Positions 42 through 24,876 are shown, numbered from the stretch's first letter. The stretch: 32,430 nt of DNA from a virus (IMGVR_UViG_3300025305_000072:1-32430), one strand, 5' to 3'. Numbers and translations are program-made. Notes: generated by a model not told the origin, from the letters alone.

Positions 42-332
42 CTACCCTATCTTATTCCACCTTCCGTCCTCTCTCCCCTCATACAGATCGATCCCGTCAG
101 TCTCCTTTGCAAGATCGATAGCACCCTCACGAAGTGCTTTCATCTGGATGGCTTGACTGTTCAGTCTAGCTAGCTCATCATTCCGCCTCTTGAACACCTC
201 GGCCAGCTTCTCGAACGCCAGTAGTGCATCTACCGGGTCCTTAGTTAGGGCGATCCCTATCGTGTCGGCTACCCAGTACGGCGTTTCGAGATTCGCCATT
301 AGCTCGTTCGCCTCTTGGTCAATGTCAAACAT
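42..332 (-). CDS. Small protein of unknown function (96 aa)
   Basis: I do not recognise this protein. It is mostly charged and probably helical, with an Ala/Leu-rich middle followed by an Arg/Lys/Asp-rich helix (about residues 30-75). No cysteine pairs or membrane segment are seen. I set the start at the ATG at 330-332 because GGGAGG lies 5 nt upstream on the minus strand. A longer reading from 404 would run through a sigma70-like promoter at 373-401, so that extension is unlikely. The gene stands alone behind its own promoter and repeat cluster, like the next two leftward genes, which suggests shared control. Confidence 0.7.
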   Translation of the reverse strand: MFDIDQEANELMANLETPYWVADTIGIALTKDPVDALLAFEKLAEVFKRRNDELARLNSQAIQMKALREGAIDLAKETDGIDLYEGREDGRWNKIG

Positions 333-372
333 TTTTCCCTCCCTTGTTGGGTTAACTTCCGCTGACACATGA

Positions 373-401
373 AGCATATCAGGGTAACATCCTAGTGTCA
401 A
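373..401 (-). promoter_or_regulatory. Sigma70-like promoter for the gene at 42-332
   Basis: On the minus strand a perfect TTGACA (396-401) is followed by a 17-bp spacer and TATGCT (373-378). The sequence CTGA directly precedes the -10 box. The spacing is ideal and the start codon follows about 35 nt beyond the expected transcription start. Three other promoters in the window have the same design. Confidence 0.7.
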
Positions 402-439
402 CACACCAACAAAATGAAGAAATAATAGATTGTAGAAAT

Positions 440-579
440 GGTACGGACGTCATATAGAAATGGTACGGACGTCCTTATTATTAATGGTACGGACGTACCG
501 TCCTAGTATAGAGTGCTTCGCACACTTATTTATTTAAAAAAAAATGGTACGGACGTGGTGCGAGTGCGGGTGCGGGCGA
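440..579 (+). repeat. 11-bp direct repeat, cluster A
   Basis: Exact copies of GGTACGGACGT begin at 440, 462, 486 and 546. Degenerate copies follow at 557 and 569 (the latter GGTGCGGGCGA). All are in the same orientation. The first two are 22 bp apart and the last three are 11-12 bp apart, close to whole helical turns. The cluster lies between the DUF932-like gene and the -35 box of the next leftward gene; the nearest copy starts 38 bases upstream of that -35 box. An A-run (about 536-544) and a G/C-rich foldback (572-578 with 591-597) also lie in this gene-free stretch. Confidence 0.9.
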
Positions 580-606
580 GTCCGGAGACCCGCCCGCCCG
601 CTGTAC

Positions 607-1362
607 TTAGTTCAAACACACTTCACCCAGAAGATTGTGAAGTCTTTGGGTTGAAGGTTGAAGATCTTGAAAGTTACGATTCTTTAAGATCTCTGTGGTG
701 GCATTGTTAAATGCCCATACGCTACGGTCTTCAAACTCTTCATGTCTTGGGTTCCTAAATTCTTTCAGAACCTTCTCGCCGTATGACCATGGAAACACTC
801 TACGGTCTGCACATTGCACGATTAGATCATGAGTTTCAGAGTCACTGAGAAGTCTATCACGATATTGTTCTATTTTCTCAGAGTGTCTCGTGTACTGATC
901 TTCGATCTTCTCAACCATGCCATAGATCCGAACGTGTAGTTCATGTTCTACGTTCGCTGTGTGCTTGTGCTTGGCAATGAAGTCTCCGTAGAAGTCTAGG
1001 TTCTCACAGACCATGACCACTAAACCGGAGGCGATACCTGCAGAGAATCTCTTGTCGTGAGAATTGCGGAGACCGATAGCAATTTCATAATCAGAATTCT
1101 CTGATAGAAGACCTTCTTTCTTGATCTTCATTACTCCAAACAAGTTGGCACCTTCATATTTGATATCGCCTAGCTTGCCCGGAAATAGCCCATACTGACT
1201 ATCGCTAACGTTCCACCCACGATAATCGAGTGCGTGCTTTACTTGGTCCACAAACCGCCCATGTGCCAACGGTACATGAGTGCGTGTCTGTGGTGGTGTT
1301 TCGGAACGATAGACTTCCGTCTCCGTAACTTCGTTACTCGTGATCAGTGTCGCTCGTGCCAT
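607..1362 (-). CDS. DUF932-like phage/plasmid protein (251 aa)
   Basis: The central segment (about residues 95-125) reads as a Gly-Leu-Arg-Asn-Ser-His-Asp-Lys block followed by a hydrophobic strand and a Val-Cys-Glu-Asn-Leu block. This is the signature I associate with DUF932, a family common on plasmids and phages and of unknown biochemical role. The C-terminal third contains a probable helical or coiled segment (residues 140-175). The ATG at 1362 has a good upstream AAGGGAG. The upstream region holds a weak promoter-like sequence (TATTAT at 1430-1435, poor -35) and repeat cluster B. The family call is from memory of motifs. Confidence 0.75.
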   Translation of the reverse strand: MARATLITSNEVTETEVYRSETPPQTRTHVPLAHGRFVDQVKHALDYRGWNVSDSQYGLFPGKLGDIKYEGANLFGVMKIKKEGLLSENSDYEIAIGLRNSHDKRFSAGIASGLVVMVCENLDFYGDFIAKHKHTANVEHELHVRIYGMVEKIEDQYTRHSEKIEQYRDRLLSDSETHDLIVQCADRRVFPWSYGEKVLKEFRNPRHEEFEDRSVWAFNNATTEILKNRNFQDLQPSTQRLHNLLGEVCLN

Positions 1363-1489
1363 AATAAAAACTCCCTTTCAAAGTGACCTGCCTTACTTCT
1401 CGATCCTATCAAGGTAATACCATATGATCATAATAGCGAATGATTCACAAAATGAGAGAAGAGAAGATTCTTTTTTATACTCGGATCAT

Positions 1490-1557
1490 GGTACGGACGT
1501 CTCTTGATTGTGGTACGGACGTAAACAACTTCTTTCTCTTGATTGTGGTACGGGCGC
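1490..1557 (+). repeat. 11-bp direct repeat, cluster B
   Basis: Exact GGTACGGACGT copies begin at 1490 and 1512, exactly 22 bp apart as in cluster A. A near-copy, GGTACGGGCGC, begins at 1547. They fill most of the gene-free stretch upstream of the DUF932-like gene and downstream of the GP88-like gene. The remaining gene-free bases (1363-1489) are A/T-rich and carry only a weak promoter-like sequence. Confidence 0.85.
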
Positions 1558-1588
1558 GGATCGGAACCGGGCCCGGGCTCGGGCCTTA

Positions 1589-2257
1589 CTAATGCCATGG
1601 ATAGCTCACGTTCGGAACAGTTTTGTCCCAACAAGCCCGACATTTAAAGTCCGGCCCGTCACACTTGCCACCTTTGGTATTGTAATCCTCGTCTGCGTGA
1701 TTCTTCGCAGGACACGAATACCCGAACGCTTCACCGTCCTTATGTACTGTTGACGTATTTTTAAAGCCCGCTACAGGTGCCCCGTCTATCATATGTGTAG
1801 AGACACGTACACATAGATTGTCTGGGAAATCTCCGTATTGTTTTAGATATTGCCTAACGAATTTATATTCCCTAGTGGGAATCCAGTGTTTTGTTTTAGG
1901 TGTACCTTCCGCAACTAATACAATGTTTCGCAAGTGCTCCACACTTTGGAGATCGCCGGAGTCATGCCACCGAAAAACTTCCGCATTGTTGATACCTTTA
2001 ATCATGTTCGGTACCCAATCGGGTAAATCTAGGGCCTGATACCTACGCTCCATAGCGTTTAGTGTAGTATGGAAACAGTACCGGCCCCCCATTGCGTAGC
2101 AATCGAAACATACGGAACCCTTAACTTTCCGTAATTTAGACCCCGTAATGCAACGTTGTGCCGGTGTACTAATAGCGTAGCCCGGCATTTTACTTGGAGC
2201 AGAGAATCCACCCACGTATTCCCTAGCTTGTTTAACTGTCGGAAGTGCAATAGCCAT
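1589..2257 (-). CDS. GP88-like phage protein (222 aa)
   Basis: The N-terminal third resembles the 'gene product 88' family of phage proteins. It has a single cysteine at residue 36, a Gly-Ser-Lys-Leu segment, then Cys50-Phe-Asp-Cys53-Tyr-Ala. An Arg-Trp-His-Asp-Ser-Gly-Asp-Leu block follows near residues 96-103, and a cysteine-rich tail ends in a Cys-x-x-Cys pair near residue 207. The conserved cysteines suggest metal or iron-sulfur binding; the activity of the family is not known to me. AAGGGGG precedes the ATG at 2257 at good spacing. It is transcribed alone from a strong promoter with repeat cluster C upstream. Confidence 0.75.
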   Translation of the reverse strand: MAIALPTVKQAREYVGGFSAPSKMPGYAISTPAQRCITGSKLRKVKGSVCFDCYAMGGRYCFHTTLNAMERRYQALDLPDWVPNMIKGINNAEVFRWHDSGDLQSVEHLRNIVLVAEGTPKTKHWIPTREYKFVRQYLKQYGDFPDNLCVRVSTHMIDGAPVAGFKNTSTVHKDGEAFGYSCPAKNHADEDYNTKGGKCDGPDFKCRACWDKTVPNVSYPWH

Positions 2258-2280
2258 AGTGGCCCCCTTTAAGTTGATAT

Positions 2281-2309
2281 AATATACACAACTATAGGAA
2301 GCTTGTCAA
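2281..2309 (-). promoter_or_regulatory. Sigma70-like promoter for the GP88-like gene
   Basis: On the minus strand TTGACA (2304-2309), a 17-bp spacer and TATATT (2281-2286, five of six consensus bases) precede the gene by a short leader. The nearest 11-bp repeat of cluster C begins 37 bases upstream of the -35 box. Confidence 0.75.
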
Positions 2310-2346
2310 CTAGAGAACAAAGAGAAGACACACGACACTGAATAGA

Positions 2347-2450
2347 GGTACGGGCGTGGTACGGGCGTGGTACGGACGTGGGTACAGACACGGTACGGAC
2401 GTTTGAGGTGGTACGGACGTAAAGATACTGCTTGGAAATGGTACGGGCGT
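2347..2450 (+). repeat. 11-bp direct repeat, cluster C
   Basis: Seven units match GGTRCGGRCGT: 2347, 2358 and 2369 are perfectly abutting tandem copies; 2381 is degenerate; 2392, 2410 and 2440 are good copies. All are in the same orientation. The exact 11-bp period in the first part puts every unit on the same face of the helix. It is the densest of the four clusters and lies between the GP88-like promoter and a dyad-rich region. Confidence 0.92.
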
Positions 2451-2859
2451 GGATATTAGAGGATTCGGCTGAAGGAGGTGTGACAATCTGGTGGTGCGTT
2501 TTTTTATAAAACCCCACCTGACAGCTGTTTGGGGAAGTGCCCCAAATAGAGAAGACCGCCACTAGGACGAACTCGTGCCAGAGAAGACCTAGTGACGGCC
2601 TACAAACCGAACGCCCTAAGAGCGTCCGTCTTGCGATTGTAGCTGGGAATATAAACCCAGTTCGCTAAAGGGGCTACTAGTAACTTACTCTTATACTAAT
2701 AACACTAAAAGACTAATTAATTAGTATAAGTGTAACTAGTAGAAGACTTATTAAGTCTAACAGTAATTTACTAGTAACTACTTTTCGGGAGCTTGTCAAG
2801 ACCCTAGCCATTAGTTGCTCAAAACTAGTCATCGAAAGAGCAGGGGGGCTACTTCTCTG
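2451..2859. other. Gene-free region with multiple dyads, next to terS
   Basis: No convincing gene lies here. From left to right it holds a perfect 7-bp hairpin (2528-2546, TTTGGGG paired with CCCCAAA, 5-nt loop), an imperfect 11-bp dyad (2556-2566 with 2588-2598) flanked by a direct repeat of AGAGAAGACC, a 5-bp hairpin (2643-2660), and an A/T-rich block (about 2674-2783). The A/T-rich block contains a perfect 11-bp inverted repeat (CTTATACTAAT at 2690-2700 with its complement at 2720-2730), a 7+1+7 palindrome (2744-2758) and three copies of an ACTAGTAAC-like word. A TTGACA on the minus strand (2794-2799) lacks a good -10. Replication origin, packaging site or regulatory RNA are all possible. 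Confidence 0.5.
2690..2758. repeat. A/T-rich inverted repeats
   Basis: Two dyads lie side by side. The first is CTTATACTAAT (2690-2700) and its exact complement (2720-2730) around a 19-nt spacer, with outer arms (about 2674-2684 and 2732-2742) that pair with one mismatch. The second is AGACTTA-T-TAAGTCT (2744-2758). Such A/T-rich dyads are typical of protein-binding or strand-opening sites. Confidence 0.7.
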
Positions 2860-3318
2860 CTACGAAACTAATGTGATATCACTGTCTCCTGTTCCAAGGA
2901 TTGATTCAAGTTTTTCTTTCAGTTCACTTTCTATTTCAGCGGAGCTTCTATGTTCTACTGTTACGGTAGTGTTATCACTAAAGAGTTTCTCTGTCTTGGC
3001 TAGGATTTCCAGTGCCCTAACTCTCACGGAGGATGCGTTGTCATCATCACTAGCTTCGGCCTTCAGCTTAGATATAATCCATTCTTTCGAGAGTGCCTCC
3101 TGATCTTTTCTTGCCGTGATTTTTTGTTCTTTGAGTTCTTGGACACGGGTTTTGATGTGCGGTTTTTTCATCATCTTTGACCCTTCGTTCTGTGCTACTT
3201 GCCGGGTCGATCCATTATGGTCATAGGCTTTGACGTATGCATCCGTGTACGTTTCTCCCTTAGCTACGAGGCTAGCGAACACAGCCTGTTTCGGGGTCAG
3301 GGTTCTACCATTAGCCAT
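2860..3318 (-). CDS. terS: Terminase small subunit (152 aa)
   Basis: The N-terminus begins Leu-Thr-Pro-Lys-Gln and continues with a Thr-x-Ala-Tyr-x-x-Ala-Tyr pattern (about residues 23-32). This is the usual DNA-binding start of Terminase_2-type small subunits, which recognise viral DNA and hand it to the large subunit for packaging. A Lys/Glu-rich helical middle and an acidic tail fit the oligomerisation and large-subunit contact regions. The length is normal. AGGAGGTGAT directly precedes the ATG. The large subunit is not adjacent: the next gene leftward is the GP88-like gene beyond 600 bp of gene-free DNA, so terS stands alone, which is unusual. Confidence 0.75.
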   Translation of the reverse strand: MANGRTLTPKQAVFASLVAKGETYTDAYVKAYDHNGSTRQVAQNEGSKMMKKPHIKTRVQELKEQKITARKDQEALSKEWIISKLKAEASDDDNASSVRVRALEILAKTEKLFSDNTTVTVEHRSSAEIESELKEKLESILGTGDSDITLVS

Positions 3319-3420
3319 ATCACCTCCTATTTATGCTTGAGACATTACTACTAACCAACCTAACCGTGCCCATCGACAGCAGTCAATTCCCCCTGATCTT
3401 GAACGTGGGACATTGATCCC

Positions 3421-3449
3421 TTGACATAATCTGCTCACACTGATATTCT
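3421..3449 (+). promoter_or_regulatory. Sigma70-like promoter of the nine-gene rightward operon
   Basis: TTGACA (3421-3426), a 17-bp spacer ending in CTGA, and TATTCT (3444-3449) lie about 38 bp upstream of the first ATG at 3487. It is the only strong promoter I see for the operon that runs to 5932. It lies in the divergent gap (3319-3486) between terS and this operon. Confidence 0.75.
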
Positions 3450-3486
3450 TATTTCCGACACTGCTTCGACAGGAGAGGTGAGAAAA

Positions 3487-3858
3487 ATGGCTCAACCATA
3501 CGACATGAAGATCACACTGACGTTCAACTGGGTCTGCACTGAGGCTGAGAGTGAAGAGGACGCTATCGAGAAAACTCGTGATGCTCTGGGAGATATGAAA
3601 TCTTATATCGACTCACCGCTGAACCAACACTGGTACGGTGAGCATTTCCGTGTTGACGGGGCCGAGTCGGGCGTTCGCTTTGAAAAGGTTTCGATAGAGA
3701 TTTTGGACGGGGATTCGGACTTCACCCACGACTACGGTCACCGCTCACCTTCTTGGATAGAGATCAACCAACCAGACCTCTACCGCAAACTTAGAAAATC
3801 AGGAGAACTAACATATGAGGAAGGTGTTGGTCACCACTGGCGGGGATCGAGGAAATGA
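3487..3858 (+). CDS. Unknown protein, first gene of small-gene operon (123 aa)
   Basis: I do not recognise it. It starts with a strand-rich segment (Met-Lys-Ile-Thr-Leu-Thr-Phe), followed by an acidic helix with a Glu-Ser-Glu-Glu-Asp-Ala-Ile pattern (about residues 20-35). Small phage proteins often combine a beta strand and helix in this way. The C-terminal half has several His, Trp and Tyr residues. The ATG at 3487 is preferred over a GTG at 3478 because AGGAGAGG is well spaced from it. It overlaps the next gene by 4 bp (ATGA), so translation is probably coupled. Confidence 0.7.
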   Translation: MAQPYDMKITLTFNWVCTEAESEEDAIEKTRDALGDMKSYIDSPLNQHWYGEHFRVDGAESGVRFEKVSIEILDGDSDFTHDYGHRSPSWIEINQPDLYRKLRKSGELTYEEGVGHHWRGSRK

Positions 3859-4058
3859 AAACCGCCAAGATTCTAGGTGCCATAGCCTACGAGATAGGTT
3901 GCCCAGACTGTGGGCCATCTGCCGAAGTTGAGGGGCCGGATGGCCGTGTGAGCTTTGTACTCAATGTGGAGTTTACCGACTACGATCAGGCATTCTGCAT
4001 AGATTGTAGCAACTACCTCAAAATGCCCCGCATTCCCAAGAAAGTGAGGTCACTGTAA
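3855..4058 (+). CDS. Small putative zinc-binding protein (67 aa)
   Basis: The sequence has Cys-Pro-Asp-Cys near residue 17 and Cys-Ile-Asp-Cys near residue 48, about 30 residues apart. This is the layout of a single zinc ribbon. The rest is short strands with a basic tail (Pro-Lys-Lys-Val-Arg). The start overlaps the preceding stop and the stop abuts the next ATG. It could bind nucleic acid or a host protein; nothing narrower can be supported. Confidence 0.7.
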   Translation: MKTAKILGAIAYEIGCPDCGPSAEVEGPDGRVSFVLNVEFTDYDQAFCIDCSNYLKMPRIPKKVRSL

Positions 4059-4361
4059 ATGAAAAACACGAATGACTTTTCTCATGTGGATATGAAGCTG
4101 GATTCTGAGATCAGTAAATTGCAGGGAAGGACTCTTGTTGAGCAAATTGATGTATTGTCTCAACGCCTAGACATCGAGACAGAACATCGATGCAACGACT
4201 GTCGTTCATTGCAGGAAAGAGTTCATGTATTAGAAAAAGTTGCTCATTCATTGAATGAAAAAGTTGATGTACTAGGAAGGGTTGCAATGATCTTGATTGA
4301 AAGGTACGACTCAGATGTTTTGGAGGAGGAAAGGAACGGTCATGCAAGTCAGAGTGAATGA
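4059..4361 (+). CDS. Coiled-coil protein with internal repeats (100 aa)
   Basis: From residue about 26 to 85 the protein is heptad-like. It contains three related stretches of the form Leu-x-Glu-x-(Ile/Val)-x-Val-Leu, and the last two are exactly 14 residues (two heptads) apart. A Cys-x-x-Cys pair lies at about residues 45-48. It probably forms a dimeric or trimeric coiled coil. The ATG follows the preceding stop with no gap. The function is unknown. Confidence 0.65.
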   Translation: MKNTNDFSHVDMKLDSEISKLQGRTLVEQIDVLSQRLDIETEHRCNDCRSLQERVHVLEKVAHSLNEKVDVLGRVAMILIERYDSDVLEEERNGHASQSE

Positions 4362-4596
4362 CAACGAAACCGTAGAAGTCAGGCCCGAAAGTGAGTGGGT
4401 AATTCTGCGGTACATCTATGAACAAATGGAAGGGAGTATCGGCATCCAGACCGGAGTCCACTACTTGGAACGTCTGTGTGGTATGGATAGGGAGACAGCA
4501 GAGAAGGTGTGCGAGGCTTGGAGATATGGGGCAGTAGATATTCCAAAGATTCTGTATGTCGGCCAAAACGGCCCAGAGTGGAATTCGGCCCCATGA
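4342..4596 (+). CDS. Unknown small protein (84 aa)
   Basis: I do not recognise it. It opens with a short beta-like segment (Gln-Val-Arg-Val-Asn) and continues as amphipathic helices with a Trp-Val-Ile-Leu-Arg-Tyr segment. The ATG at 4342 is chosen over an upstream in-frame ATG at 4297 because GGAGGAGGAAAGG precedes it. It overlaps the coiled-coil gene by 20 bp and the next gene by 4 bp. Confidence 0.65.
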   Translation: MQVRVNDNETVEVRPESEWVILRYIYEQMEGSIGIQTGVHYLERLCGMDRETAEKVCEAWRYGAVDIPKILYVGQNGPEWNSAP

Positions 4597-4802
4597 ATGT
4601 AGCCATATTCACTTTATCCGACATGATTGTTCAGGGCCTTATGACCATGTGTATTGGTTACCTGATTTGCAATGCCATCCATGACCGGAGCCCACTGTTT
4701 GGAAAGTCTGTGCGGAATGCGTTACGAGAAGATCTAAAGGTTCCGCCACCCAAGGTGGATACCAAGCACAAGTGCCCACGTTGTGAAGAGAAACTCAGGT
4801 GA
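4593..4802 (+). CDS. Small membrane protein with C-terminal Cys pair (69 aa)
   Basis: Residues about 4-25 form one hydrophobic segment, probably a transmembrane helix. A basic/amphipathic middle follows, and then a Cys-Pro-Arg-Cys motif near the C-terminus, preceded by His-Lys. The start at 4593 gives the ATGA overlap seen throughout this operon. It could anchor a metal-binding tail at the inner membrane, for example to modify host envelope functions, but that is inference. Confidence 0.65.
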   Translation: MNVAIFTLSDMIVQGLMTMCIGYLICNAIHDRSPLFGKSVRNALREDLKVPPPKVDTKHKCPRCEEKLR

Positions 4803-5089
4803 AGATCAGCGTGATGTACGCTCTTTATGTTCATGGCATCTCTGCAAATGTGGATGCAGATGACTGTCCAGCGATGCGTCTTTGCCAAATGGCAGAAGAC
4901 CGTGAGGCAATAGGAAGATCTTATATTGAAGTGGATTTATCTGATGGCAGGATTCGGGCCGAACTTCTTTCGGGAGCGGAAGCGTATAGTGCAGACCCCT
5001 ACCCGAACAAGAAGTGGAGCAATGAAATATCCCAAGAGGCTCAAAGAATTTTCAACGCTATCCATGAGTGGGAACGGGTACGGGACTAA
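4799..5089 (+). CDS. Unknown small protein, GTG start (96 aa)
   Basis: The reading frame opens with a GTG that overlaps the preceding TGA (GTGA). An in-frame ATG at 4814 is the alternative start. The N-terminal half alternates strands and Cys-containing turns and the C-terminal half is helical and acidic. I recognise no family. Confidence 0.6.
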   Translation: MKISVMYALYVHGISANVDADDCPAMRLCQMAEDREAIGRSYIEVDLSDGRIRAELLSGAEAYSADPYPNKKWSNEISQEAQRIFNAIHEWERVRD

Positions 5090-5409
5090 CCTTGTACAAT
5101 CTTGATATCGAAACGCTGATAGATTTTGCCGGAGAAAACGCACAACTATACGGGAATGGCACATCTGTAACAGGAAACATATGGGTCAACTGCACAGTTG
5201 CTTTTCGATATATCGATAGGGAGGGTAACGAAACTAATCGTGTAGTAGAACCGAGGAGAGTTTGGAGAACGAGAGATAAAGATCAGTTAATGTTGTCAGG
5301 ATGGTGCTACACAAGGAGATCTCCACGCACATTTTACTATGACGGAATCAGGGATATATGTACTGGAGGAATTGGATTACAATATATTATACAAGGAAGG
5401 GACATATGA
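5068..5409 (+). CDS. Unknown small protein (113 aa, start uncertain)
   Basis: The frame is open from 5068 (GTG) to 5409 and overlaps the previous gene by 22 bp. There is no good ribosome site at the GTG, so the exact start is uncertain. The protein is rich in Tyr, Arg, Thr and Trp and looks beta-rich. It ends with an ATGA overlap to the next gene, which supports it being translated. No family is recognised. Confidence 0.55.
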   Translation: MGTGTGLTLYNLDIETLIDFAGENAQLYGNGTSVTGNIWVNCTVAFRYIDREGNETNRVVEPRRVWRTRDKDQLMLSGWCYTRRSPRTFYYDGIRDICTGGIGLQYIIQGRDI

Positions 5410-5693
5410 ATACCACATCGTTTGGAACGGGTTCGGTATCAGTTGAGGAGGAAGACATTATGCGTGGGGCAAATGATCACCCATATAGACTTTGCGTTGA
5501 CACTTTCAAAACAAAAATACTACTCTATTCAAGGTACATGGAGTTGGCTAAAGGGCCACCTCGTGACAATGATATAGCCGATGAAGCGATCACGATGCTA
5601 AAGGATATAGAAAACTCGCTTTACTTGGCGTTGGACACAGCTTATCTGGATGGAAGACATGATGGATTGGTTGATGCATCGGAGTACAAATGA
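5406..5693 (+). CDS. Unknown small helical protein (95 aa)
   Basis: The ATG at 5406 overlaps the preceding stop and follows GGAAGGG. A longer reading from 5358 is less likely. The C-terminal two thirds look helical, with a Leu-Ala-Leu-Asp-Thr-Ala-Tyr-Leu-Asp segment. No cysteine pair, membrane segment or known motif is seen. Confidence 0.65.
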   Translation: MNTTSFGTGSVSVEEEDIMRGANDHPYRLCVDTFKTKILLYSRYMELAKGPPRDNDIADEAITMLKDIENSLYLALDTAYLDGRHDGLVDASEYK

Positions 5694-5932
5694 GGACAGT
5701 TGAAGCACGTCGTTTGCACAAAAGGTGTTTACGCAACGCCCGTATTTATGGACACAAACCTGTTTTAATCTCGCACCACGGGGCACTTGCATTGTACGGA
5801 TGCATGGGTTGTGAAAAGACAATGGAAGTGTGGGACTCTCCTGCCATAACGAATGGCCCGATGGATCAATCCCTGTGTGATATCAGTCCGAAGTTTCTCA
5901 GGAGAATATTGATTAGGTTGATATCAATATAA
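5690..5932 (+). CDS. Small Cys-x-x-Cys protein, last gene of operon (80 aa)
   Basis: It starts with an ATGA overlap. The N-terminus is basic (several Arg, Lys, His), a Cys-Met-Gly-Cys motif lies near residue 38, and single cysteines occur earlier and later. A zinc-binding fold is possible. Repeat cluster D begins 1 bp after its stop codon. Function unknown. Confidence 0.65.
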   Translation: MRTVEARRLHKRCLRNARIYGHKPVLISHHGALALYGCMGCEKTMEVWDSPAITNGPMDQSLCDISPKFLRRILIRLISI

Positions 5933-5933
5933 A

Positions 5934-5969
5934 GGTGCGGACGTGGGTACGGACTTTAGGTGCGGACGT
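5934..5969 (+). repeat. 11-bp direct repeat, cluster D
   Basis: Three units, GGTGCGGACGT (5934), GGTACGGACTT (5946) and GGTGCGGACGT (5959), are spaced 12 and 13 bp. The orientation is the same as in clusters A-C. Unlike those clusters, it lies directly behind a rightward operon and has no leftward promoter nearby. The rest of the gap to 6088 holds only hairpins. Confidence 0.8.
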
Positions 5970-6088: not shown

Positions 6089-6301
6089 CTAAGAAGAAAA
6101 GTCTTCGGAGGCAATCCCCAAGGATGAATCGCACGCTCTACATTTGTACCTTGGTGGATTTGTACGGTGTATCATTCCACAATCGCAACGGGTACCGGGA
6201 TCAAATGGTCTCATTACCCATCCACAAAAATGACAATACTTGTCCCTTGATTGTCCGTTATCCGTGTTACAGCGAGGACAATAGATGGGCTCTTTAGCTA
6301 T
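6089..6301 (-). CDS. Double zinc-ribbon protein, likely AUA start (70 aa)
   Basis: The minus strand encodes four Cys-x-x-Cys or Cys-x-Cys motifs: CPRC and CHFC about 12 residues apart, then CDC and CRAC about 14 residues apart. This is the pattern of two consecutive zinc ribbons and is very unlikely by chance. The frame has no ATG, GTG or TTG before the first motif, back to an in-frame stop about 110 bases upstream. The best start is ATA at 6299-6301, preceded at 4-5 nt by AAGGAGG and overlapping the upstream TAG as ATAG, the same geometry as the ATGA couplings elsewhere here. Alternatively a -1 frameshift fuses it to the winged-helix protein. It may bind DNA, RNA or a host polymerase. Confidence 0.75.
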   Translation of the reverse strand: MAKEPIYCPRCNTDNGQSRDKYCHFCGWVMRPFDPGTRCDCGMIHRTNPPRYKCRACDSSLGIASEDFSS

Positions 6302-12089: not shown

Positions 12090-12393
12090 CTACAAGAATA
12101 TGCCAAAACTCGACTTCGGAATTTGGCCCAACCAATTCAAGAAGTCGTCGAAGCACCCGATCAAGACGGGTACCATCGAGATGACTGAGACTTTGCTGAA
12201 GGCGATGCTTGAACGTGCAAAGGGAGGGGAGATGCCTGTCCTGTCCGTGGCGATATGGGAGCGAGTGAGCAGGAACAACCGCACATATGAAAATGCACAG
12301 CTTCAACTCAAGCCTTCTACGGGGCACACGGATACCCCTCCGTCCCCCGAAGAAAATGATGAGGAAGAAGATGAATATGGCCTCCCCTTCTAA
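12082..12393 (+). CDS. SSB-like protein with acidic tail (103 aa)
   Basis: The protein has a short body followed by a tail of consecutive Glu/Asp ending Gly-Leu-Pro-Phe. This resembles the acidic Ile-Pro-Phe ends of single-strand DNA-binding proteins, which recruit partners. The middle segment (Val-Ala-Ile-Trp-Glu-Arg-x-Ser-Arg-Asn-x-Arg-Thr-Tyr) reads like a strand-turn-strand of an OB-type fold. Its place directly after the annealing protein supports a role on single-stranded DNA. The start at 12082 is chosen over two upstream in-frame ATGs because of GGAG spacing. Confidence 0.65.
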   Translation: MPDYKNMPKLDFGIWPNQFKKSSKHPIKTGTIEMTETLLKAMLERAKGGEMPVLSVAIWERVSRNNRTYENAQLQLKPSTGHTDTPPSPEENDEEEDEYGLPF

Positions 12394-12571
12394 GAAATCT
12401 TTTCTTCTTAGGCTGGACGAGGAAACGCTAGAGAAACTTCGTAGCTTGGCAGAAGATAACCAAATGCCTTTAGCTAGATTGTTGCGTAATATACTAACAG
12501 ACTATTTGGAGGACGTATCATTAACGAAACCACAGAAAGAGAAAGAGACTGTACCGTGGTGGATGGAGTAA
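12371..12571 (+). CDS. Ribbon-helix-helix protein (66 aa)
   Basis: Residues about 9-45 match the Arc/MetJ/CopG pattern: a short strand Ser-Phe-Leu-Leu-Arg-Leu followed by Asp-Glu-Glu-Thr-Leu-Glu-Lys-Leu and a second helix ending Ile-Leu-Thr-Asp-Tyr-Leu-Glu. Such dimers bind DNA through the strand and often occupy direct repeats one helical turn apart. It is the best local candidate for binding the 11-bp repeats. The start may be 12371 or 12377 (two nearby ATGs after GAGGAAGAAG). It overlaps the genes on both sides. Confidence 0.72.
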   Translation: MNMASPSKKSFLLRLDEETLEKLRSLAEDNQMPLARLLRNILTDYLEDVSLTKPQKEKETVPWWME

Positions 12572-16911: not shown

Positions 16912-19900
16912 CTACGGCCTCTCGCCTAACACCTGTTCTATTAAATCTCTGTCTTCTCTGATGTCTGCCATTATATCCAGCATTTCCCGCAAGTGGTCGT
17001 CCCGTGTTTCAATCATTCGGTACAACATGCTTCGCTTGCCTTTTTCAGAGAGGTCGCGCCTTTCAAGCAAGTCATCACGGTCCTCTCGCCATTCGTCCAT
17101 GAATCTCTTCATATGACTCAAGCGGTCCTTATGGCGTAAATACTCTTCGTGTTTTTCCTCGTATTCTTGCGCCTTGCCCTCTGGTCCGTAACGACGCCTC
17201 TTCTCGATCTGGCCTAATGTGGTTACAATTTTATTAACATCTTCCAGCATTTCGTAAAAGTCTTCTTGGTAGCCACCGCCCCTTGCGGGATCAAATAAAA
17301 GGTCGCCAAGCATAGGGGTATTGACAAGCGTTTGGGTATTGAAACCCGACTCGCGCCCTCGTCTATCAAGGGGAGACAAGCCAACTATCTCACCAATCAA
17401 CGGGATCGGGAAGTCGGCTGCCGTTCCTACGATATTATCGTCGTGAAATTCGGCGGCAATACGATCTGCTGTTGCCAGCCCATACGCCCCTATCGTTCCA
17501 AAGTATTGGCGTAGCATGTATTCCAGTTTCATTGGCGATGTAAGAAAATCCGCATTCCTGACGAGTGGAATCTTGTTGATGCCACCGGACAGTTTCTTGC
17601 TAAGATAACTGGTGTATGGATTGAACTGTTCAGGGGCAGATACACTTTCCGACATCCATGATGGTACGATCCTGTCTCGTTGGAATACGTCCCTGTTGTT
17701 CATTGCGTCCCACACGGGACGTATGATCTGGGGTCTCAAGTCGAGACTGAGGGATGCCTGTACTTGACGCTTTACTTCACCCCTTACATCCCTGAAATCA
17801 TGTTCTTCTTCCACAATAGCACGGGCTATCTGTTCAGGGATCGTCTTATACAGAACACCTACTTCAAACGGAATCGGGATCTTGACGCCCGGCATCCCAT
17901 CTCCGAGAGGTATAAGCCACCAATCATTTTTCATGTCCTCTCTGGCGTTCTTGTATTCCTCCTCGTCATGCATAGCCATGTAATAGAGAAGTGTCATACT
18001 TGAGATAAACAAGCCTCTTCCGAGTACAACGCCCGCACGTCTCGCTTGATGCAACCCTGAGTCCGGGCGAATTCTTTTTTCGTTCGACAATATACCGGGC
18101 GCATCATAGGCACCCAAATGTGTTCGGGCCATGACATCAAGACCTTGGATTCGGCCATTCAGGAATGGTGCCATGGATGTTATGATACTGAACAACGGGT
18201 TGGACCCACGACGGCCATAGTTGATAATCTCCATGGCCTCCAATGTTGCCTGCGCCGCATTGCCATCTGTTTGTGCCATTACCGTATCGTAGACGGCCAT
18301 GCGGGTAGCCACCTCGGACTGTTTTGACATGCGGCCCAAAGCGTCCCATGCCAGTAAAGTAATATCTATGGGACTTGACCATTTCATCTCGCCCTTTGAA
18401 AGCATCTTGACGGTCGTTGCCGTCGATCTTGACGGGTCGGGTGACCAGTCAACACCGATTCCTAGTCCTCGTTTTTCCGCCTTCTCTACAATATCGGGAT
18501 CAATGACATTTTGTAGTGTCTTGAATATCAACTCCATTCCGCCACCGAACGTGACGGAAGCCTGCATACTGTCCCTTATGATGTTCTTTAACTGGAATGC
18601 CGGTGATCGAGTTACCAACTCACGCAACAATGTCGAAGATCCGACAACAATTCTGGAGAGACCCCTGTTAAGTCTTTCGCTCTCGCCAAGGACGGGTATC
18701 TTCCCGAAAAAGTCCTCTATCATTTGACGGGGACTCAAGGCTACGGACATTGCTGATTTCGCCAGCATAGCGTCCGCAACCAGATATTCTTGCTCGGAGC
18801 CATTTTCAAGGATATTGGTTTCGAGCTTGATTTCGTTCGCCTCCAATTTCTTATGGTCTTGCAAGATATCTTCTAATTCTTCGCGGGTTGCGTTCGGCAG
18901 ACGTTCCCTGACCTTAGCCAAGTCAGCTTTATATGTACTCTCGGTAATCCCCTTGGTCTTGACAATGAGTGATGTATCCCAGCCCTTGGCCTCGGCAATC
19001 TTTTTCTGCCTTCTCCTTATTTTCTCGATAGCATCAATCTCTGCTTTAAGCTCTTGCACTTCACTATAGCTTGGATGCTGAGATTCTTCTGTAATCTGTT
19101 TTTGCCCCATCGCGTCATCTATACGCTTCTTGAGAGCGTTGTATCTCCTGCGCTTCCATGCAGGAACGACGGCTAATCTAATGGCGGTACCGGAATTAAC
19201 CTCGTCACGCATTGTCCGGCTTGCCGCAATGTTTTCCATTGATTGTTCAAGAATGGTCCGCACATTCTTGGTTACATTAAAAATTAGGTTGTCATTAATC
19301 TCGTGGAAGCTGCCATCGAGATATTTATCGATAAGGGGGTCGCCTCTTACCGGCTCTCCTCCATGGTTGTCATACGCCGTCTCTGCGTCCTTCTTCTCCT
19401 GCTCTCTCTTCTGGTACTCTTCATTATTTATGTTGACCAATGTGCCGTCACTCGCCAGTGCGTCTGGATGTTTTTTGCCTTCGGGATCAACCGGGTCTTC
19501 TTTCACATAGAATGGGATATAGGGCATTGACTGCATGAAATCCTTGCGCGATTCGGAAACCAGCCCGGCGTCATGTGCAAACTGGATCAGGTGCCAATTG
19601 AAATCAGCATATTCCCGTTCAAATTTCAGGGCAGCAAGTGATGGTTTATCTCCATCTCCGGCCTCCCGGTTAACCCGATCTATTGTAGCAGCTACCTCAT
19701 TATACCCCTTGTCTAACACATCTGTTGTTTCAGACTGATGTACCTTTCCTACTACAACGTCGTAAAAACTACCCTTTAGGGTGCCGTCCTTGAGTCTTCT
19801 TGTATTACGTTCTTCTTCCGGCCATTTTTTGCCCTTCTTACGAGGGTTTGCCCTTTCGTACAGGGCGTTCAGTTCCCTTATCCTCGTTTCAAGATCGAGA

Positions 19901-22900
19901 GCGAGATCGGCTTGGTTCTCTCTTCGGGCCATGATGAGATCATTGTGCGCCGATCTCATTGCGGTTTGGATTCCTTCCACTCGACGCATTGTCATATAGG
20001 TCATGACCATTCTTTGGGCATCACCAACCTTTATCTCGCCCCACGGCCATTTCCTGCCGGGTCCATCAATCTCAACAATGGTTTTGAATATCTCGTTAAG
20101 ACCCTTTACGGCCCTTCCCTCTCTTGTGAGTGGGACGTGCTGGAAGCCGCCTTTGACATAGCTGATCATCCCGTATTTCATAATGCCGGGAATAAAGTTC
20201 AATGCATTGTCAGCAAATCGCCATGCCGCTATCGCCGAATTCTCGGCAAGTACGCCTAGCGTGGTACCGTAACGCTTGACTTCCTTGTCATACGACTTCT
20301 TGCTCGACAGCCACTGGAAAATACGCTTGTCCATAAGGCGGCCCCTGAGCATCTCTTTTTTGGTGCGCGTGATGGCTTCCTCTAATTGGGCACCATTTTC
20401 TATTGTATTGCCGTCAGGGTCTTGGAGAGTCATTCCGTCTATAACTTGCTTGCCTCCGGGATCTAGTTCCGCCGTTATGATCCCCATGTCAGCAAATTCC
20501 TGTAGCAACAACTCTTCTTTCTCTGACATGACAGAGCTATTATGACCAAACCGGAAACTGCGGAGATCTCTCGGTGATACTGGCATACGGTAGGCGAGGG
20601 CTCGACCGTCCTTTATCCTGAAATAGGCGTCAAGGGCGGCTGGCCCAACATTGCCGTCCTCTAGTGCAGCCAAATTGAGTACCGACAAGGACGTTTTTGG
20701 TGTACCGTCGATATCTGCCCGTGCCCTGAAGTCGTTGATAAGAGAATCTAGAAGAGATTCCGTGGGTTTTTTCTGTGATTCCTCGGCAGCGTCAACTCTC
20801 GACATAACGATTCTGTCGGCAACCTCTTCTATCTTATCCCTGTCTTTTGTCTTGATTGCCCGAATTAACTCTTTCACGTCTTCAGGCTTGGCACGATCAA
20901 TAAGCTGAAGGTCTGCTGCCTTGCGCTCCAGCCTGCCCTCCCGCTCCCTGCGATCAACCAGTTCCCTGTTCTGGATCTTCTCGAAAACTCTTATGACGGG
21001 AAGGATATCGGTATCTTGTGCAGCCCCGGCCATTGCCTTGAATCGTCCCCTCAACTCACGCTTGATCTTGCCTATCGCCCCAACAGATTTTGCCGCCGGG
21101 ATCTTGCCCTGAGCGAGTGCGTCCAAGATGTGTACGGAAGTCTCTTCTGTAAGGTCGGCATCCGTTTTATCTTGATATCCCTGTACATCCCTCACCCATT
21201 CGCGCCAAGTAAGGCCCTCGGCAGCGGCGTCCGGGTCAACTTCTACGGGAACCTTGGTGTGGCCGAATTTCTCTAGGGCCTTTCGTTCCCATACCTTCAT
21301 GTTTTTGAGTATGTGGATATGGGCACCCTCATGTGCCACGGCATGTTTCATGAGGTCATCAATATTGGCATCAGTAATCTTGCCAAACTCTCGTGCGATC
21401 TGTGAAAGATTGAATGTGATCTGATTGCCGTAATTCTGTAGAGAGGAAACTGCGCCGTTCGTATAGGCTGGCCTATATATTGGCTTGTTATTCTTATCCA
21501 ACTTGAGCTTGGGCCTGCCGTTCTCCATTACTACATTGCCCGTTTTCGGGTCCGTCTCCATCTCAAAGGCACCCAAGAAGGTGACATCCTCAACTTGCTT
21601 TCCAAGAAGTTCAGCATTTTGTTCTATCTCGAAAACTATTTCTGTTTCGTTGGGAAGCCCGGCCTCCTTGATATATTTTATTGCTATATTTCTCCATTCC
21701 TTGATGGTCTTGCCTGCCACGACCAGATTATCAACATCCTGCTTGCTTTCATGAGGCGATTTAGGAATAGCTCCCTCTTGTTTTTGTAGTCTCCTGAGTT
21801 CTTTGCGTCTTAGTAAATTCTCCCTGCCTATAGGACTTTTATCTTGTTGTTGTTGGGAGCCAAGAACGCGCTCAAAAACTGTCATCTTCTGAGCGTCACT
21901 CAGATTGCTCCACGAAAGATCATTGCCGACCGCATCATTCATCACCCGTTGGAAGGCTTTTGTTCGGGTCGGGTTCTTGGGTACGTCGTAGTTCTTTGCC
22001 TCAAGCGTTGCCTTGATAAGCTCTACGTCCACCGGCTTACCCGCCTTGACAAGGTTATCGTAAATCTCTTTTACTTTTTTGAATGCCGGTTCGGCAAGTA
22101 CCGTGGTCCAAGGCCCGGCATAAACCCTGTCCCTTCGTACAGGCTTGTCCTGTGACTTACTGTCCTCCAGCTTCCTATCGGTTTCGGGAATGGATCTAAT
22201 GTTTATAATTTGATCCAAGGCACTACTTGCATTCTTGGCATCTAACAAGGACTTAACCGTATTCTCAACTTCCCCGATGGACATGTCAGTGTCCCGTGGT
22301 CTACCGCTCAATTCTGCGATAAGGGCAGCCTGTTCCGGTGTCGCACCTATCCGGTCAGCAATAAGCTCTGGCGATTCCTGATCATTCTCCAGATTAGCGA
22401 GCCTTTGTTCTATCTCGGCTCTATCGACACCCTTATTTTCTATCTGTAATTCCAACGCCACTTTTTGCAGATTAACGCCTTCTTGCCCGGAAACGGTTTC
22501 GGTCATCGGGGTTCTACTGTACTCAATTCCCCGACCTTCGTATTCCAGATGCACGCCCGCAGGCTTCTTGTATTTGGTTTCTTCGAGTAACGCTGCTTCC
22601 TTTTCTTTGAGGATCTGCATTTTTTCGGACACGGCTGCTTGCTTCTGTTCCGCCTCTTCACGCAATTGCTCTAAGGCTTCCGGCGACAGTTCCCCGTCCT
22701 GAGCTTGTTGTCTTGCTTCGGCCCTCTTCTTGGACGATTCCTTCTCTGGGTACCTCCGACGGTACTCATCGAGGCGTGCCTTGGCATCAACATAACGGCC
22801 TTCGTGGTAGTCGAGGAGCGCCAGACGTTCGAGTTCTAATTTCATTTCCTCCGTGCGGAGGAGGTTCTGCTCGTACTTGTTCTCGTCTATCCTTTCTTCC

Positions 22901-24876
22901 AATTCTTCCAATCCATCCAGCTTTTCTTCCAGAGCTTTAAGATTCTCTCCGTCTGGATCAACCTCGGCAGCAATCTCTTCAATGACTCCGTCTCTATTTT
23001 TGGGGCCTTTGAAACGAGCGGTGATATGCTCCCATACCGCTCCCAGTTTATATGTGGGTGGTGAAGAAAGATGTTCTATACCGAGAGCAGGCTGTCCGGC
23101 AGACTCGATAGCTCGCTCCTGCGCCTGAACGCTTACCAAGAGTGTCTCAAGTTTTTTCTTATATTCAATTAGTTCAGGATCTGCCTTCTCGGCAATCTTC
23201 TTATCGACCTTGGCAATCTCCTCATTGACCATGTCAGAGGTGAGGACTTCCAAATCCAACTCGTCGAGTTCGGCCTGAGCCTCAGCATTGTCTTGCTCTT
23301 CGAGAACGGCGGGCATTGTACCATTCCAAGTCCCATTCTCGACCATCTTCAGGGCCTCTCGATACCTGATCATCTCCCTGCCGTAGTTTACCAGTTCATC
23401 TGCAAGTTGTGCGCTGTCTGATTCATGTTGCTCTTCAATTTTCTTTTCCGCTGCTTCGCGTTGATTCTTTGTCTTTAATTTACGCTTGCTTAACCGCTTC
23501 AATCGATCATCGCGTAGTTGATCAATCTTATTTTTCTGTTCGGCGTGTATCTCGCTAGCCCGCTTATCGATATCCGTGTCGTTGCCCGTGAGTACCTGTT
23601 GCCGGATTTTCTCTTGTTCCTCGGCGTGCGCCTTTTCCTCGTTATATTGGTCCTCAGTGATCTCTCCCTTATTGTAGCGTTCCTCAATAGCAGCGAAGTC
23701 CGGGCCGGTAACCATGTTATCGACTTCGTCGGCAGTGTATTTGCCGGTTTCGAGAGCATGTGTAAATGATTTGCCAGCTTCTACACGCGCCTGATATTTC
23801 CCGCCTCGTACCCTGATACCGGCAGCAGATCGCACATACATGGAAGCTATGATATCGGCAACGGCACCAACCTCACCGCCAATGATGGCTTCCTTCAGGG
23901 CTTCGGTGCCAGCATTTTCCAAAGCGTCTTCGTCGTAGAGAACCTTGGCTAGCACAGACTGGAGGAACCCTGCGCCACCTTCCTGAATGGCTTCCTCGGT
24001 AGCTTGCTGGGCAGCAGACTGGAACATCTTGCCAGTTGTCATATCGATGCCCTTCTCAATTGCATCCGGGCCGAATCTCCCTGCGAGCCTGCTGACGGGC
24101 ATCATTTCAGTCCACCCTAGACCAAGACCGCCCAAGAGAGCCGCCACTTCCGTGCCCTTGCCGACATCCCTTCCGGTACGCTCCTCGTAGTCAGCGACCA
24201 TTCCGGCCTGTTGGCCTGCGCCCATGAGCATCGCGCCCCCATAGGCCGCGTATGGACCTACATAGGGAATGAAGGCGGTTCCTGCCATGGCCGCTACCTG
24301 ACCCAGTCCCATGGCTAGTTGTGGTAGGTTGGCGTCCCGGTACACCGGATCGATTTCGTCGTAGAGGTCTTGTAGTTTCTTTCTCAGTTGCTTTTCGCGA
24401 TCCGTATCCTTGTCGGGCGTAGCAAGTCCGAGGAGTCCCTGTTCGGCCATGAGCGCGAACTGTTTCGCTCCTCGTGGGAAGGCTTTTACGGCCTCAAAAG
24501 CAGATCCGAGAAGTGTGCCCTCTTTCTCTGGGACTGGGTCTTCTATACCTAACGAGGCAATGCCAGTCCTATCTCGGCCCGTCCGTGCGGCATCGTCCCC
24601 TCGTGTCGGGAACCCTCGTGTCGGGAACCCGGAAGATTCCTGCCGCGTAGGGAATCCCCGCGTAGGGAATCCCTGCGTAGGGAATCCTGAAGACTCTTCT
24701 TGGGGAGAGAATCCTCTTGTAGGAAATCCTCTTGTAGGAAATCCTGAAGATTCTTCTTGGTCGGGAGGAGGAGAACTGGACCCAGTTACCCTACGAATAA
24801 ACCGGGCACGTTCCTCTGGGGACATGCCCGGCGGTATTCGCACAACCCTGCCGTCAGATAAGGTAATTGTTTCCAC
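16912..24876 (-). CDS. Giant polyvalent virion protein with zinc-peptidase motif (2654 aa)
   Basis: In order: a Pro/Gly-Phe-Pro-Thr-Arg-rich N-terminus with a pentapeptide array; a hydrophobic Gly/Ala-rich helical region (about 185-260); a long Glu/Lys-rich coiled coil (about 370-800); His1182-Glu-Gly-Ala-His1186, a zinc-peptidase motif, with Glu1245 as possible third ligand; further helical segments; a Phe-Ala-His-Asp-Ala-Gly-Leu...Pro-Tyr-Ile-Pro-Phe-Tyr block (about 1770); and an LPD38-like domain (about 2165-2290) with Asn-Tyr-Gly-Arg-Arg-Gly and Pro-Phe-Leu-Asn-Gly. Such proteins are packaged in the virion and enter with the DNA, in the role of T7 gp16. The start is a GTG at 24876 with a weak ribosome site. 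Confidence 0.8.
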   Translation of the reverse strand: METITLSDGRVVRIPPGMSPEERARFIRRVTGSSSPPPDQEESSGFPTRGFPTRGFSPQEESSGFPTQGFPTRGFPTRQESSGFPTRGFPTRGDDAARTGRDRTGIASLGIEDPVPEKEGTLLGSAFEAVKAFPRGAKQFALMAEQGLLGLATPDKDTDREKQLRKKLQDLYDEIDPVYRDANLPQLAMGLGQVAAMAGTAFIPYVGPYAAYGGAMLMGAGQQAGMVADYEERTGRDVGKGTEVAALLGGLGLGWTEMMPVSRLAGRFGPDAIEKGIDMTTGKMFQSAAQQATEEAIQEGGAGFLQSVLAKVLYDEDALENAGTEALKEAIIGGEVGAVADIIASMYVRSAAGIRVRGGKYQARVEAGKSFTHALETGKYTADEVDNMVTGPDFAAIEERYNKGEITEDQYNEEKAHAEEQEKIRQQVLTGNDTDIDKRASEIHAEQKNKIDQLRDDRLKRLSKRKLKTKNQREAAEKKIEEQHESDSAQLADELVNYGREMIRYREALKMVENGTWNGTMPAVLEEQDNAEAQAELDELDLEVLTSDMVNEEIAKVDKKIAEKADPELIEYKKKLETLLVSVQAQERAIESAGQPALGIEHLSSPPTYKLGAVWEHITARFKGPKNRDGVIEEIAAEVDPDGENLKALEEKLDGLEELEERIDENKYEQNLLRTEEMKLELERLALLDYHEGRYVDAKARLDEYRRRYPEKESSKKRAEARQQAQDGELSPEALEQLREEAEQKQAAVSEKMQILKEKEAALLEETKYKKPAGVHLEYEGRGIEYSRTPMTETVSGQEGVNLQKVALELQIENKGVDRAEIEQRLANLENDQESPELIADRIGATPEQAALIAELSGRPRDTDMSIGEVENTVKSLLDAKNASSALDQIINIRSIPETDRKLEDSKSQDKPVRRDRVYAGPWTTVLAEPAFKKVKEIYDNLVKAGKPVDVELIKATLEAKNYDVPKNPTRTKAFQRVMNDAVGNDLSWSNLSDAQKMTVFERVLGSQQQQDKSPIGRENLLRRKELRRLQKQEGAIPKSPHESKQDVDNLVVAGKTIKEWRNIAIKYIKEAGLPNETEIVFEIEQNAELLGKQVEDVTFLGAFEMETDPKTGNVVMENGRPKLKLDKNNKPIYRPAYTNGAVSSLQNYGNQITFNLSQIAREFGKITDANIDDLMKHAVAHEGAHIHILKNMKVWERKALEKFGHTKVPVEVDPDAAAEGLTWREWVRDVQGYQDKTDADLTEETSVHILDALAQGKIPAAKSVGAIGKIKRELRGRFKAMAGAAQDTDILPVIRVFEKIQNRELVDRREREGRLERKAADLQLIDRAKPEDVKELIRAIKTKDRDKIEEVADRIVMSRVDAAEESQKKPTESLLDSLINDFRARADIDGTPKTSLSVLNLAALEDGNVGPAALDAYFRIKDGRALAYRMPVSPRDLRSFRFGHNSSVMSEKEELLLQEFADMGIITAELDPGGKQVIDGMTLQDPDGNTIENGAQLEEAITRTKKEMLRGRLMDKRIFQWLSSKKSYDKEVKRYGTTLGVLAENSAIAAWRFADNALNFIPGIMKYGMISYVKGGFQHVPLTREGRAVKGLNEIFKTIVEIDGPGRKWPWGEIKVGDAQRMVMTYMTMRRVEGIQTAMRSAHNDLIMARRENQADLALDLETRIRELNALYERANPRKKGKKWPEEERNTRRLKDGTLKGSFYDVVVGKVHQSETTDVLDKGYNEVAATIDRVNREAGDGDKPSLAALKFEREYADFNWHLIQFAHDAGLVSESRKDFMQSMPYIPFYVKEDPVDPEGKKHPDALASDGTLVNINNEEYQKREQEKKDAETAYDNHGGEPVRGDPLIDKYLDGSFHEINDNLIFNVTKNVRTILEQSMENIAASRTMRDEVNSGTAIRLAVVPAWKRRRYNALKKRIDDAMGQKQITEESQHPSYSEVQELKAEIDAIEKIRRRQKKIAEAKGWDTSLIVKTKGITESTYKADLAKVRERLPNATREELEDILQDHKKLEANEIKLETNILENGSEQEYLVADAMLAKSAMSVALSPRQMIEDFFGKIPVLGESERLNRGLSRIVVGSSTLLRELVTRSPAFQLKNIIRDSMQASVTFGGGMELIFKTLQNVIDPDIVEKAEKRGLGIGVDWSPDPSRSTATTVKMLSKGEMKWSSPIDITLLAWDALGRMSKQSEVATRMAVYDTVMAQTDGNAAQATLEAMEIINYGRRGSNPLFSIITSMAPFLNGRIQGLDVMARTHLGAYDAPGILSNEKRIRPDSGLHQARRAGVVLGRGLFISSMTLLYYMAMHDEEEYKNAREDMKNDWWLIPLGDGMPGVKIPIPFEVGVLYKTIPEQIARAIVEEEHDFRDVRGEVKRQVQASLSLDLRPQIIRPVWDAMNNRDVFQRDRIVPSWMSESVSAPEQFNPYTSYLSKKLSGGINKIPLVRNADFLTSPMKLEYMLRQYFGTIGAYGLATADRIAAEFHDDNIVGTAADFPIPLIGEIVGLSPLDRRGRESGFNTQTLVNTPMLGDLLFDPARGGGYQEDFYEMLEDVNKIVTTLGQIEKRRRYGPEGKAQEYEEKHEEYLRHKDRLSHMKRFMDEWREDRDDLLERRDLSEKGKRSMLYRMIETRDDHLREMLDIMADIREDRDLIEQVLGERP
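24601..24745 (-). repeat. Array of 15-bp coding repeats (Gly-Phe-Pro-Thr-Arg)
   Basis: Three local groups encode seven Gly-Phe-Pro-Thr-Arg/Gln units in the giant protein: two identical 15-mers (24601-24630), three near-identical ones (24644-24688) and two identical ones (24716-24745). Units within a group match at DNA level but groups differ. The groups are separated by Gln-Glu-Ser-Ser spacers. This pattern suggests recent local duplication. Confidence 0.9.

Follow-up and report, generated by a model that had tools for sequence, protein, structure and literature searches.

Words bound by terminase are repeated near terS, the gene for the terminase small subunit, in cosB and pac sites, and T4-type promoter-early stem-loop cassettes place a terminator hairpin and an early promoter between exchangeable genes; we know of no direct-repeat array in such cassettes. 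Stoperators of cluster A mycobacteriophages (L5, TipsytheTRex) are short asymmetric intergenic sites of 13 bp that are oriented with transcription (PMC9283540, PMC4351075), and stoperators and Rap1 provide precedents for orientation-dependent blocks (PMC9283540, PMC10310618). The Start Associated Sequences (SAS) of cluster K mycobacteriophages are short, non-palindromic, one-way repeats of one genome part; each includes the ribosome-binding sequence and sits 3-7 bp ahead of a start codon (PMC3203893). Corndog (cluster O) carries many copies of a 17-bp repeat, partly intergenic, to which no function is assigned (PMC4351075).

Exploring a stretch of 32,430 nt (the window), the record of a linear IMG/VR virus without assigned genus, we found arrays of an 11-bp direct repeat that are likewise short, asymmetric, intergenic and oriented with transcription. 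They differ from stoperators in that the word is arranged in tandem arrays and occupies the interval from terS to terL plus one nearby site, rather than the whole genome. L5-type phages are temperate and carry an integrase, whereas the tyrosine integrase domain (PF00589) had no match in the 22 fragment records searched here, with the positive control recovered in 14 of 14. Like the SAS, the arrays are one-way and belong to one part of the genome; however, they sit close after stop codons, the distance from the last copy to the next start being mostly at least 72 bp for conserved genes, and the motif has no AGGAG. The Corndog repeats, in contrast, are palindromic, have no meaningful orientation and fall inside genes in about a third of cases. 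As in cosB and pac sites the repeats adjoin terS, but here there are several arrays per genome, and as in the T4-type cassettes a terminator and a promoter may accompany them. A literature search found no paper on the motif itself and, as far as we found, the arrays are a conserved, apparently undescribed cis element of uncultured marine podoviruses related to SAR11 phages.

A search of the window for GGTRCGGRCGT returned 14 exact copies, all on the plus strand and all within four clusters, arrays A to D. Allowing up to one mismatch gave 17 copies inside these clusters, again all on the plus strand, while dinucleotide shuffles averaged 0.03 exact copies and 1.2 copies with up to one mismatch, and none of 100 shuffles reached the observed counts. 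At up to two mismatches the background climbs to 19, so that weaker copies are not to be counted. The earlier note, which spoke of nearly 20 units in four gene-free clusters of a single orientation, was thus somewhat high in its count and right about the rest: all four arrays lie outside likely genes, the ORFs overlapping them (e.g. 513-710 and 2269-2562) being unsupported. Its statement that the repeat is absent elsewhere in the window was borne out save for one site with up to one mismatch at 18029 on the minus strand, a number expected by chance. We assign the arrays to the minus strand, which reads ACGYCCGYACC along the genes.

Read in this direction, terS (2860..3318, minus strand; Pfam PF03592, 6e-06; PHROG 51, 1e-12) is followed by array C (2347..2450, minus), which has six exact copies (2347, 2358, 2369, 2392, 2410 and 2440) and whose position is kept in relatives. 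A sigma70-type promoter, TTGACA-17-TATATT (2281..2309, minus), lies 37 bp past array C and ahead of a gp88-like gene (1589..2257, minus; PF17338, 7e-25). Array B (1490..1557, minus; exact copies at 1490 and 1512, a one-mismatch copy at 1547) is found 32 bp past the stop of this gene, with the GC-rich hairpin GGCCCGAGCCCGGGCC in between, and is followed by a DUF932-like gene (607..1362, minus; PF06067, 7e-07). Array A (440..579, minus; exact copies at 440, 462, 486 and 546, a one-mismatch copy at 569) begins 28 bp after the DUF932-like gene stops, and 38 bp beyond the array a second sigma70-type promoter, TTGACA-17-TATGCT (373..401, minus), precedes a gene of 120 aa and unassigned function (42..404, minus; start likely the ATG near 331). 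Array D (5934..5969, minus) carries GGTGCGGACGT at 5934 and 5959 and a one-mismatch copy at 5946; it lies where two convergent operons meet at their 3' ends, marking the end of the leftward one, and no leftward promoter or gene start was found in its neighbourhood. The gene-oriented order of terS, array, gp88-like gene, array, DUF932-like gene, array, small genes, terL and portal varies among relatives. One contig (L035) repeats the left end of the window including array A and continues with the counterpart of the 42-404 gene and then further arrays. Searches of Rfam and for tRNAs gave no matches. Between terS and array C the window also holds dense ACTAGT-based inverted repeats (2640-2780), and L014, L015 and L032 likewise have an ACTAGT-rich stretch with a TTGACA box after terS. 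An open frame before array D (about 6090-6297, minus), which closes the leftward operon and is without a usual start codon, contains several CxxC-type pairs (YCPRC, YCHFC, CDC, CRAC). Elsewhere, an ORF of 2654 aa spans 16912-24876 (minus), and G001, G002 and G003 each have a long counterpart (1922-2731 aa).

Helical phasing, also proposed in the earlier note, held for the window in part. Copy spacings are 22, 24, 60 and 23 bp in array A, 22 and 35 in B, 11, 11, 23, 18 and 30 in C, and 12 and 13 in D, some of them near whole turns, but phasing is not general in relatives: among 135 spacings in 59 non-redundant arrays the commonest was 13 bp (32 cases), and a 10.5-bp periodicity was weak for spacings above 13 bp (R=0.18, p ~0.04).

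Scanning viral contigs for two motif copies at most 30 bp apart yielded 37 stretches. Three were dropped as likely coding repeats (L009 and L018, with spacings of 18 and multiples; L016, a low-complexity coding string), leaving about 30 uncultured phage records, several of which represent the same or nearly the same virus. Within each motif-bearing record every exact copy shares one orientation, and in the longer records the copies are limited to one region; the longest (52.7 kb) has five exact sites, all at 49,971-51,922. In aligned homologous arrays the motif columns were 99% and 95% identical compared with 78% and 61% outside, and by this measure the motif is under purifying selection. A profile over 194 sites, [A/g]CG[CT]CCG[T/c]ACC[T], has no dyad symmetry, and its flanks carry little information except for a C preference three bases before the motif. 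The copies are thus clustered rather than spread at random density, far above the shuffles, and sampled close relatives with enough sequence carry the motif with the exception of L230, which has another repeat. A conserved one-way motif in relatives supports the suggestion that this is a phage-specific cis element and not low complexity. A scan of bacterial genomes for pairs of the motif brought up no host regulon among the matches listed; those that we looked at, or classed from their spacing, proved to be repeats in coding sequence (many from Streptomyces, spacing 18) or Phycisphaerae palindromes. The latter, GGTACGGGCGTCTCGCCCGT-type repeats dispersed in L080, L126, L133, L123 and other Phycisphaerae contigs, appear unrelated to the phage arrays. 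A pair scan with GGTACGGYCGT was discarded, the examined matches (L184, L189, L191) looking like coding repeats. Long GCC-rich repeats with 5- and 10-bp period were seen in L049 (8200-9350).

For a motif-blind test, aligned TerS proteins were used to fetch 80 terS loci. Copies of CCGYACC follow terS in 15 of 17 relatives with TerS identity of at least 51% and enough sequence, the two exceptions being L200, with only ~300 bp available, and L230, with its different repeat. Sequence was sufficient at 76 loci; in 38 of them one or more CCGYACC copies occur on the terS strand within 450 bp after the gene, compared with 6 for the reverse complement. Below 51% identity the core survives at many loci as GACACCCGTACCTC, CGACCGTACC or a similar word, and other distant loci have a different one-way word in the same place (TCGATTCCTCA, CGATCCCTCCT, TCGATTCCACC, CTCGCTTCTCC); in some, the search for the most repeated 11-mer found no repeat. 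Single replacement words, found by this search, are only suggestive, because in some loci it also returns words of 4-7 copies upstream of terS; their consistent placement just after terS is the stronger point. No exact motif copy lies upstream of terS among the relatives that cover that side, apart from array D of the window lineage. In L229 and L261, lineages with a variant motif, arrays also follow each gene of a series, and in distant lineages no copies in reverse accompany the minus-strand genes of the terS-terL interval. We also observed, about 30-60 bp after terS, a GCGCAGAGGCTCTTTC-like stretch with partial dyad symmetry (e.g. L021 1190-1210, L230, L243), which is kept even where the array word differs and is a candidate cleavage or packaging element. 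In L249, L234 and L235, GGGGAAATTTTCCCC-type palindromes lie beside the CCGTACC copies after terS.

The arrays are confined to the terS-to-terL interval, array D being added in the window lineage. The upstream neighbour is a known, conserved gene for 53 arrays and lies on the same strand in 49; for the other 4 the closest ORF upstream is a small one on the reverse strand, with a plus-strand gene immediately ahead of it in at least 3. A strict intrinsic terminator was found in the 150 bp leading up to 14 of 55 arrays, compared with 1 of 249 control stretches, and behind none. In 12 of these 14 arrays the T-run stops 11-14 bp short of the first copy, a spacing that rests on ~10 independent hairpins because some of these arrays are homologous. 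Promoters matching at least 10 of 12 consensus bases lie within 100 bp after 19 of 58 arrays (1.7% in the control, 0 of 56 upstream stretches). Compact gene gaps would tend to impose the order terminator, array, promoter on any element, and this order alone is therefore weak evidence. The 20 bp after the last copy are 72% AT. For ten arrays the next gene is convergent, leaving no start to serve, and together with array D these arrays are evidence against a purely promoter-linked role. After the gp88-like gene, and beside an array, we noted a micro-ORF of ~25-33 codons with one hydrophobic stretch in L014 (~4115-4192), L021 (~2385-2466), L027 and L030, in gene-oriented coordinates.

Our preferred reading, held tentatively, is that the arrays are binding sites for a phage protein that would form stoperator-like polar barriers at the ends of transcription units; the one-way word, which dozens of related viruses share or have replaced, probably serves a viral protein as the place to land and so to mark the ends of genes or close them off. 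A sequence-specific, probably phage-encoded protein would bind the arrays, and the bound arrays would act as barriers in one direction wherever a gene of the separately transcribed series between terS and terL reaches its 3' end, halting RNA polymerase that had overrun, or paused at, the end of a unit. Each gene would be insulated from its neighbours and the phage could alter when the barrier is in force, all within a marine podovirus group without detected integrase. The binding of a protein, its action on RNA polymerase and its phage origin are what we infer from the sequence. A position 11-14 bp past the T-run is, given the footprint of RNA polymerase, about where a DNA-bound obstacle would hold polymerase paused there. 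The single orientation of all exact copies per contig, the placement after same-strand genes (in L229 and L261 too), the convergent cases, the lack of exact copies ahead of terS in relatives, the purifying selection on the motif and the position of array D at an operon end speak for polar barriers. Against them, only a quarter of the arrays have a strict terminator, the minus-strand genes of distant lineages are without reversed copies, other operon ends of the window are without an array (e.g. the convergent boundary near 15.0-15.2 kb), and in 023Pt_psg01 the five GGGCCCACCC sites of the terS-terL interval, a word picked post hoc, stay in one orientation though the flanking genes switch direction. 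A Rho-loading (rut) reading was rejected, since rut sites need less than the strict 11-bp conservation seen here.

The most widely kept array is the one right after terS, which fits packaging or replication equally well. The main rival, possible although we consider it rather unlikely, is that the repeats are cosB- or pac-like recognition sites bound by the small terminase, the array behind terS being the original. The strand bias of CCGYACC after terS fits this explanation, as does the finding that in many lineages lacking this core a different one-way repeat begins 50-350 bp beyond terS; several such arrays lie beside or between AT-rich palindromes (AAAAAAGTTTTTT, GGGGAAATTTTCCCC), with convergent genes beyond and no promoter. 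The repeat word also shifts as TerS diverges, but such divergence would hold for any other phage gene. One site per genome would be expected for packaging, yet the window has four arrays, array D elsewhere, and most relatives have several; the window clade, L229 and L261 have equally good arrays after other genes over ~5 kb, and these seem to fit polar barriers better than terminase recognition. Contig ends near terS were discarded as evidence of genome ends, the ends being spread and repeats breaking assemblies.

The enrichment of strong promoters within 100 bp after the arrays, with arrays A and C lying 37-38 bp from -35 boxes, would suit operators through which a phage repressor or activator sets the timing of early genes, and in HTVC027P the genes lying in this interval are expressed on a schedule of their own (PMC12753301). 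We regard this explanation, the operator or enhancer of the earlier note, as unlikely: that note's view agrees with the arrays that have a promoter but not with the many that have none. The distance from array to -35 box ranges over 23-58 bp with no clear phase, not every strong promoter of the interval is accompanied by an array, and no strong promoter lies directly behind array D, the convergent cases after the DUF932-like gene, L014 4205, L040 5318 or L027 2124. Replication iterons bound by a phage initiator, which we hold to be improbable, would account for direct repeats with adjoining AT-rich DNA and for the ACTAGT-rich inverted repeats beside array C; however, there are several arrays per genome, their positions are set by gene boundaries, and they do not adjoin the primase-helicase or other replication genes. 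It seems very improbable that the arrays are boundary or recombination modules to which no protein binds and which persist because they offer short homology when genes are exchanged. The gene series varies among relatives while the repeats persist, and a Sak annealing protein is encoded, but 11-bp words are short for homology and the motif bases are held far more strictly than the flanks.

As to the protein that would bind the arrays in our preferred reading, a 66-aa ribbon-helix-helix protein (MNMASPSKKSFLLRL...; 12374..12571, plus strand), with Pfam matches just under the curated cut-offs, is a weak candidate. All contigs that have the motif and extend over the replication module encode it, and so do L048 and L049, where the array region is not covered or not comparable; L047, a contig with a variant motif, yielded no match. 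ParB (PF02195) was identified in 5 of 14 motif-bearing or related records; G003 (33.4 kb) and G007 (23.5 kb), both with the motif, lack it. ParB was therefore rejected as a general binder, and this distribution, together with the non-palindromic site, leaves a ParB-type centromere unsupported. Other candidates (an 84-aa winged-helix-like protein and ORFs of 80 and 111 aa) were set aside as not general or without a known domain.

If arrays of this kind stop transcription one-way, orientation-dependent protein barriers would extend from lysogeny control to lytic growth. More generally, and with considerable doubt, marine phages without detected integrase may place polar, protein-bound repeat arrays as barriers at the ends of single-gene units, the word having been exchanged repeatedly among lineages together with its cognate protein; this would be a lytic counterpart of stoperators, possibly derived from a terminase recognition site. 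Words replaced between lineages at a kept place offer natural pairs for finding the binding protein. The nearest isolates include HTVC023P-type podoviruses (TerL 56-61%, portal 41-45%), phage DSL-LC04 and others, and HTVC027P has no RNA polymerase gene (PMC12753301). Within the genome parts examined, ACGYCCGYACC was not found in HTVC023P-type isolates, whose repeat sequences differ, and the searched passages of the paper on HTVC023P-type genomes make no mention of such repeats (PMC9599517). In HTVC023P itself a 33-bp unit stands directly behind terS in three copies, and a later gap has related words with a TTGAGAATA core, both picked post hoc; the phage appears to carry an equivalent of the arrays, which makes the question testable in culture. 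Its gaps also hold micro-ORFs similar to those found after the gp88-like gene.
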